Of a stretch of DNA of 64,000 nt, positions 38,032 to 39,708 are shown piece after piece. Made by a program: the position numbers and the translations under genes. The DNA comes from Myxococcota bacterium (lineage in GTDB: Bacteria > Myxococcota_A > UBA9042 > DTJE01), in the NCBI GenBank assembly GCA_017994695.1, contig JAGOKF010000003.1, positions 1 to 64,000 on the forward strand, written 5' to 3'. Every line of letters starts with the position of its first letter. The first letter of the stretch is position 1. The notes beneath the pieces are model-generated. The model was not told the origin of the DNA and ran no database searches. It saw only the letters and a program-made list of their open reading frames with translations.

Positions 38032-38487
38032 TCAGGGCTCCTTCCGGTGCCCGCCCCGGTACTTCTCCCGGTAGTACTCCTCCGCCTGCTCCTCCGAGAC
38101 CCCGGCCTCCTGGTATTTCGAGGGGCACTTGACGATCATCCGGCCCACCCGCATGGTCCCGGCGCCGTCCATCCGTCCCTGGAGGATGACCTCCCGTCCC
38201 TCGGCGAAGGGGTCCGGGAGCGCTCCCTGGTACACGCAGGACAGCGTCCGCCCCGTGCCGTCCCCGATGTCGAACCGCGTCTCGAAGGCGTTCTGTCCCT
38301 TCCGGACGCTGCCCTCCTTCACGTTCCCCGACACCTTGAACTCCCGGTCCCCGATGCGATCCGCGGCCGTCAGGGCCTCCTCGAGGGTCAGGCTGTACAC
38401 CCCCCCCGACATCGAGGACCCGACCACCACCAGGCCTCCCGCCAGCACCAGGCCGGCCACCGTCAACGGAATCCAGCGTTTCGCCAT
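38032..38487 (-). CDS. ccmE: CcmE haem chaperone, cysteine (CxxxY) type
   Basis: The 151-residue protein has a membrane anchor (residues 6-24), the CcmE OB-fold (EFKVSGNVKEGSV, ALPDPFAEGREVILQG) and a flexible tail. Where the common family has HxxxY for covalent haem attachment, this one reads CPSKY, so Cys121 replaces His and Tyr125 is kept. Cysteine-type CcmE is known from Desulfovibrio and archaea with Ccm systems lacking CcmG and CcmH. It is the first gene of the operon. Confidence 0.93.
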   Translation of the reverse strand: MAKRWIPLTVAGLVLAGGLVVVGSSMSGGVYSLTLEEALTAADRIGDREFKVSGNVKEGSVRKGQNAFETRFDIGDGTGRTLSCVYQGALPDPFAEGREVILQGRMDGAGTMRVGRMIVKCPSKYQEAGVSEEQAEEYYREKYRGGHRKEP

Positions 38488-38555: not shown

Positions 38556-38622
38556 GGTTCCCCCGGGGAAACGGCGCCGGACCTTGGCCCGTGGCATCCC
38601 CGGGAACGGACGCGCGCGATGA

Positions 38623-38638
38623 TGTTGACACGTCAACA
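38623..38638. promoter_or_regulatory. 16-bp palindrome, probable operator, between the Ser-His-Gly gene and ccmE
   Basis: TGTTGAC-AC-GTCAACA has perfect seven-base arms and a two-base centre, in a position with no coding frame. Its arms contain TTGAC on both strands. On the plus strand TTGACA followed 17 bases later by GATACG could even direct antisense transcription across the repeat gene. The shape suits a TetR-, GntR- or MarR-type dimer; the regulator is unknown. Confidence 0.55.
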
Positions 38639-38691
38639 ATCAGGGGAGATACGGTCTGCTGGAACGACGACGGAAGCCCCGGGACCGGGAA

Positions 38692-39030
38692 CTACCAGGA
38701 CCCGTGGGACCCGTGAGACCCGTGGGACCCGTGGGACCCGTGAGACCCGTGGGACCCGTGAGACCCGTGGGACCCGTGGGACCCGTGGGACCCGTGAGAC
38801 CCGTGGGACCCGTGGGACCCGTGGGACCCGTGGGAGCAGTGCTGCTCGGCCGCCAGATCGGCCGCCGGGCCGCCCTCCCCGTGGGCTCCGGAAGCCAGCG
38901 CATGCCCACTGGCCCCCGCCATCAGCAGGAACGACCCCACCGCGGCCGCCTGGCCCCGGGTGATCTTTCCTTCCTCGCTGGACAAGAAATCCTGTAGACG
39001 CTTCTTGAACACCGGAAGACGGGTGGCCAT
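38692..39030 (-). CDS. Signal-bearing protein with fifteen Ser-His-Gly repeats
   Basis: The 112-residue protein starts at an ATG with GGAGGGG six bases upstream. Residues 1-25 are charged ([18 protein letters not shown]). Residues 27-46 are a hydrophobic run ending GHALA, which could be a Sec signal or a peptide leader. After HGEGG and a short Ala-rich link comes HC (64-65), then Ser-His-Gly fifteen times and a final Ser-Trp. Other frames read collagen-like or Val-Pro-Arg repeats, but all differences between repeats are silent only in this frame. A His ladder suggests metal or haem binding, or a modified-peptide precursor. No maturase is adjacent. It lies upstream of ccmE on the same strand. 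The family was not recognised. Confidence 0.8.
38701..38835 (-). repeat. Tandem 9-bp repeat, 15 units, encoding Ser-His-Gly
   Basis: The plus-strand unit is CCCGTGRGA, where R is G in eleven units and A in four (units 2, 5, 7 and 11 from the left). No other base varies. The array is exactly 135 bases and lies within the 38692-39030 gene. R is the third base of the Ser codon (TCC/TCT). Confidence 0.95.
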
Positions 39031-39058
39031 GGAACCCCTCCAGCAATCCGCAAGTGCG

Positions 39059-39099
39059 ATTATCGGGAACTTCGACAAGCGATGTCAATCTTTTTTTCT
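39059..39099 (-). promoter_or_regulatory. Strong promoter with A-tract UP-like element for the Ser-His-Gly gene
   Basis: On the minus strand an exact TTGACA (39083-39088) is followed after 18 bases by GATAAT (39059-39064), 28 bases before the ATG. Directly upstream of the -35 is a run of seven A residues, resembling an UP element. This AT-rich block is exceptional in the local sequence and predicts high expression. Confidence 0.85.
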
Positions 39100-39162: not shown

Positions 39163-39708
39163 TCAGGCCTGTTCCGGACCCTCGGGCCCAGCCCCCTCCC
39201 CGGGGGCCCCGATCGCTCCCGCGGGCGCTCCCGTCGGGCTCCCCACCTCGGCGGAGGCCCCCGCCAGCCGGGCCTGGATCACCTCCGGCGAGAACCGCAC
39301 CTCGTTCAGCCGGACGCAGGCGTGGATGTCCCGGCGGTCGAAGGACAGCAGCAGTTCGTCGATGAAGTCGTTGGCCCGGTCGTCGGGGATCCGCTCGATC
39401 TCCTCGACCTTGGGGTTGATGGTCCGGACCAGCGCCAGCATCGCCTGGTAGAGGTCCCGGTGGAACTGGTTCCAGAGCAGCACCAGCACCTCGGCGACCG
39501 TCTCGTTGTGCCGCTGGTACAGCTCGAACCGCAGGGACTCGGTGACCCGCTTCCGCCCGAGGGTCTGGGGCCGGTAGCCCTGGAAATGGCGGGCGAAGGC
39601 CATCCGGTCCAGGCGCCGGATGTGCTCGATGATCAGTCCGATGTCGAGGCCCCGGACGATCCGGTCGAAGTCCTGCTCCAGCGGCCCGAAGGCCTCCACG
39701 GCGTTCAT
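39163..39708 (-). CDS. Hypothetical helical protein downstream of the GTPase-like gene
   Basis: The 181-residue protein is soluble and helical in its first 145 residues (for example [20 protein letters not shown]), then a Gly/Ala/Pro-rich tail. No family is recognised. It begins 19 bases after the stop of the 39728-41059 gene and is probably in the same transcript. Confidence 0.75.

Follow-up and report, generated by a model that had tools for sequence, protein, structure and literature searches.

A fifteen-fold Ser-His-Gly repeat protein encoded beside ccmE in a Myxococcota genome is a probable precursor of an unlinked His-Xaa-Ser radical-SAM system

The window (the whole stretch of 64,000 nucleotides that was analysed, taken from a 3.96-Mb assembly of 158 contigs) contains a minus-strand open reading frame, 39030..38692, which encodes 112 amino acids: a leader of 63 residues, a His-Cys pair, (Ser-His-Gly)15 and a final Ser-Trp. 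From upstream to downstream, the locus is made up of the following features.

39163..39708, minus strand: upstream neighbour gene, with no Pfam or NCBIfam match
39083..39088, minus strand: -35 hexamer TTGACA, kept in same-family relatives, with an A-tract just upstream (39091-39097)
39059..39064, minus strand: -10 hexamer GATAAT, from the promoter scan and the same-family comparison
39035..39041, minus strand: ribosome-binding site GGAGGGG, by direct reading; a similar GGAGG is found in relatives
38692..39030, minus strand: coding sequence of hxsA4 (112 aa, starting at the ATG at 39030), matching NF038313; present in all same-family genomes searched
38842..39030, minus strand: leader, residues 1-63, ending in ...EQ, conserved in alignments A1 and A2
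38836..38841, minus strand: His-Cys pair at the opening of the core, found before the array in nearly all homologues
38701..38835, minus strand: 15 Ser-His-Gly units, probable modification sites, with Ser and His near-invariant in relatives
38692..38700, minus strand: terminal Ser-Trp and stop; SW or QW ends 47 of 47 full arrays
38032..38487, minus strand: ccmE, downstream neighbour (Pfam CcmE, 79.6 bits), probably not part of the system

The array consists of 15 perfect 9-bp units, 11 of them TCCCACGGG and 4 TCTCACGGG, and the sole variable site is the third base of the serine codon; Tandem Repeats Finder placed the array at 38698-38835. It is present exactly as the preliminary description had it, with fifteen 9-bp Ser-His-Gly units between His-Cys and Ser-Trp. 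The strong promoter named in the same description was confirmed as well: the near-consensus TTGACA-N18-GATAAT at 39088-39059 is the sole promoter-like match in 2 kb, where 0.1 would be expected, and TTGAC-N17/18-NANAAT stands directly upstream of hxsA4 in 13 of 13 same-family sequences, usually with an A-tract. Copies of hxsA4 that are carried in an operon, in family f9, have no such promoter at the corresponding place. The gene starts at the ATG at 39030, behind GGAGGGG, and not at the TTG at 39078, a codon situated between the two promoter hexamers.

Judged by its sequence, the gene is hxsA4, an ordinary member of a family that is named but chemically uncharacterised. The protein scored 93.1 bits against the NCBIfam model NF038313 (HxsA4; cut-off 55) and 91.2 bits in the genome search, so that the earlier impression of a repeat without a named family has to be given up. 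With other members of NF038313 it has in common the leader, the HC pair, the (SHG)n core and the presence of HxsB in the same genome; it differs from them in being unlinked from hxsDBC, in having its own promoter, in its position beside ccmE, and in a hydrophobic segment of the leader that is missing from some members. With a mean Kyte-Doolittle value of 1.5 across 15 residues, this segment is only modestly hydrophobic, and the property is weaker or absent in more distant HxsA4 leaders; a secreted-looking leader, as first described, is possible for the window protein but is not a feature of the family. Leader residues 6-40 also match the NCBIfam model NF038309 (HxsA3) at 44.3 bits, short of the cut-off of 65 and with the core unmatched. 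Profile searches of the window's genome for HxsA, HxsA3 and HxsA4 genes found none besides this one. Matches of the leader to ClpP were weak throughout (E 0.065 and above) and were taken as chance.

A first question regards whether the repeat is maintained as a peptide. The preliminary description had concluded so from the silent variation between units, and selection is indeed what the relatives point to; the argument from the single array of the window is nonetheless weak, because one duplicated transition would give the same pattern and a third of the possible transitions of the 9-bp unit (3 of 9) are silent. Compared with a same-genus relative, the leader shows 15 nucleotide differences, of which 15 are silent, without a single amino-acid change. 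Among 47 distinct arrays in relatives, with 748 triplets in total, Ser is kept in 748, His in 746 and Gly in 728 (0, 2 and 20 replacements, respectively). A switch between AGY and TCN serine codons takes two base changes, and both codon types are mixed within 25 of the 47 arrays. As to the frame breaks and the loss of leader or repeat that had been named as signs against the first reading, frame and ends are kept in the 47 arrays and the leader is conserved. Given the silent leader differences and the conservation of the arrays, these comparisons show strong purifying selection on HxsA4 and a real gene that is selected as a protein.

The same data weigh on the reading of the locus as a 9-bp DNA satellite that is open in this frame by chance. 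Such a satellite would fit the occurrence of only two unit types in the window array, and the array does expand and contract, with 15 triplets in the window and 6 in the same-genus relative. However, the leader differences are all silent, frame and ends survive in 47 arrays (25 of which mix AGY and TCN codons), and the promoter is conserved in same-family relatives, which leaves this reading practically no chance. Exactly 15 triplets are found in 24 of the 47 arrays, across families with differing codon make-up, and this recurrent length hints at a constraint on the length of the array, a parameter that may be affected by short-read assembly.

A structural fibre protein of the collagen-like Gly-X-Y type is a further alternative that the triplet counts address. 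The protein scores 33.4 against Pfam Collagen (PF01391; cut-off 27.2), and collagen chains match it by composition in a PDB search, but this fit is to any sequence with glycine at every third position, the array contains no proline, and glycine is the least conserved residue of the triplet (20 of 748 replaced; Ser 0, His 2), the opposite of collagen. We regard a collagen-like fibre as extremely improbable. The PDB matches to collagen and to a 'spindle/axial fibril' were dismissed as low-complexity, and a search with the core only gave no well-aligned domain.

The enzymes that would act on HxsA4 are encoded elsewhere in the same genome. HxsD, HxsB and an HxsC-like radical-SAM protein lie together on contig 3, which is not the contig of hxsA4, and this hxsD-hxsB-hxsC cassette was found to contain no gene for a His-Xaa-Ser repeat. 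HxsB, a radical-SAM/SPASM maturase, scored 546 bits against a curated cut-off of 370, and HxsD, encoded directly upstream of hxsB, 57.6 bits against 50; the radical-SAM protein encoded directly after hxsB fell below the cut-offs of both HxsC (75 vs 268) and HxsC4 (85 vs 500). On the opposite strand of contig 3, the gene L008:11842-14136 (minus strand) ends just past the HxsC-like gene; its product of 764 aa contains a TSP3 repeat and matches Big_1 weakly, and a homologue is found near the cassette in 9 of 10 same-family genomes examined.

The radical-SAM cysteines of HxsB (105, 109 and 112) are invariant in alignment A4, and several auxiliary cysteines are conserved too. Its predicted model (mean pLDDT 86) combines an N-terminal beta-beta-beta-alpha-alpha domain with a radical-SAM core, and its best solved match is the thioether-forming sactipeptide maturase CteB (5WGG); further solved matches are an anaerobic sulfatase maturase, TigE (8VPO), which acts on TIGR04114-type repeats, and ChlB (9GM3). 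The predicted overall fold is like those of CteB, TigE and ChlB at about 16-20% identity, whereas these three act on other peptides than the proposed substrate of HxsB. Based on the secondary structure and the 5WGG match, we infer that the N-terminal domain of the HxsB model is RRE-like, a domain type that serves in leader recognition. In the HxsD model, about 95 residues form a confident core, for which the fold search returned no significant solved relative; an RRE-type fold for HxsD is unsupported on that count, and a leader-binding role for it would be a guess because no solved relative is confident. Beyond the stretch matched by TIGR03976, HxsD (L008:8512-9141; alignment A3) carries a conserved C-terminal extension, LDFLDDPLGIAVPWEEK.

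Although precursor and cassette are physically separated in this genome, their families occur together. The search for homologues with Ser-His-Gly repeats, one of the checks proposed at the outset, was productive: among 138 relatives, HxsA4 scored above its cut-off in 58 and HxsB in 63, with both in 56 genomes, HxsA4 only in 2, HxsB only in 7 and neither in 73 (Fisher p = 4e-28, kinship ignored). The two genomes with HxsA4 only are both 68% complete or less. In family f9 the genes are contiguous in the order hxsD-hxsB-hxsA4-hxsC, and hxsA4 adjoins hxsB in several other, more distant families. In 10 same-family genomes and in the window's own, the hxsD-hxsB-hxsC cassette lacks the repeat gene and hxsA4 lies elsewhere. 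Since detached hxsA4 genes are also found in f2, f3 and f6, at different sites, the detachment may have occurred more than once, or earlier. A homologue of the upstream gene at 39163-39708 precedes hxsA4 in every same-family genome read; outside the family (same order and class), it is found in 10 of 10 HxsA4 genomes searched, away from hxsA4.

The position beside ccmE was seen only in the window's family. Of the two kinds of neighbour that the preliminary description had in mind, a radical-SAM maturase gene (hxsB) is found next to hxsA4 in several other families, while ccmE is found there in this family only. On one contig, ccmE follows hxsA4 in 9 of 12 same-family relatives; a tenth, G006, has a contig break within the array, and another contig carries a matching repeat stretch beside ccmE, which suggests that the order is likewise hxsA4-ccmE. 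CcmE was not detectable in genomes G003 and G009 (loci L041 and L047; genus g3 of the same family; G003 is 97% complete), in which hxsA4 still follows the usual upstream gene and is itself followed by a gene that we take, from its sequence, to be topoisomerase-like. From these gene contents, ccmE appears to have been lost from genus g3, with hxsA4 retained. Outside the family, a search with the window CcmE as query (E 0.001) detected no CcmE in 6 of 10 HxsA4 genomes (f2, f3, f9, f10); the f4 and f6 genomes have ccmE and hxsA4 on different contigs. Because g3 keeps hxsA4 without ccmE, and because the outside genomes either have no detectable CcmE or have it unlinked, the adjacency looks like a landing site and not like a pathway. 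Between hxsA4 and ccmE, at 38619-38650, lies a near-palindrome, TGATGTTGACACGTCAACAATCA, which is possibly a candidate operator for the ccm genes.

The presence of hxsA4 does not track the ccm genes, inside or outside the family, and a component of cytochrome c maturation was therefore rejected as an identity for HxsA4. A related scenario is that, in most of the family, the Hxs product was recruited to cytochrome c maturation or to some other role in haem or redox chemistry, the precursor having moved to the ccm locus, gained a strong promoter and stayed there as its product works with the pathway; we consider this very improbable.

Storage of metal or haem, which the preliminary description had derived from the ccm neighbours, does not stand on that ground, as the ccmE adjacency is confined to one family, g3 does without ccmE, and the family searches matched the window protein to no metal- or haem-binding family. 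In its general form this reading holds that the protein is an unmodified His-rich one that stores or buffers Ni, Cu, Zn or haem, for example in the service of the neighbouring ccm genes. A histidine at every third residue, the His-Cys pair and the ccmE neighbour in most genomes of the family would be in line with it. Nonetheless, serine is as invariant as histidine (748 and 746 of 748) and simple metal ligation needs no serine; HxsA4 presence follows HxsB, not ccm; and the reading gives the maturase cassette nothing to act on. Storage by an unmodified protein is therefore very improbable.

In our opinion, HxsA4 is very probably the precursor protein of a His-Xaa-Ser radical-SAM system, RiPP-like, which is modified in trans by HxsB and HxsC, with HxsD. 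The HxsA4 match, together with HxsB, HxsD and the HxsC-like protein in the same genome, lends good support to the early suggestion that the repeat forms the core of a modified peptide. One paper (PMC9062424) credits Haft and Basu with the His-Xaa-Ser motif and mentions HxsB and HxsC as its putative maturation enzymes. With the classical HxsABCD system the present one shares two radical-SAM proteins, HxsD and a His-Xaa-Ser repeat target; unlike in that system, the HxsA model TIGR03979 matches nothing in the window's genome and the HxsC-like protein is divergent. We infer modification by HxsB and HxsC from the families and their co-occurrence, since the open literature searched yielded no product of HxsABCD or of any Hxs system. 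Counting against this reading are the HxsC-like protein, which is below cut-off, and the lack of linkage between precursor and maturases in this genome.

How the system may work can be outlined as follows. The conserved leader would be bound by the maturases, probably via the RRE-like N-terminal domain of HxsB and assisted by HxsD. In each triplet, the His and/or the Ser would then be altered by HxsB and the HxsC-like enzyme through 5'-deoxyadenosyl-radical chemistry; indeed, the fixed positions of the triplet are Ser and His, not Gly, which supports modification there. The outcome would be a protein whose repeat is decorated at regular intervals. Given its own strong promoter, the detached gene could allow this many-site substrate to be made in excess of its catalysts. 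Possible roles of the finished product include cell-surface material, metal or redox handling, and signalling.

What is new here is modest, namely an unlinked precursor with its own conserved promoter. Genome mining that relies on gene neighbourhood would miss the detached hxsA4. Hxs families have been named, yet the literature searched shows no product for them; with a single precursor, a single maturase cassette and a substrate of extreme regularity, this bacterial family would offer a clean test case.
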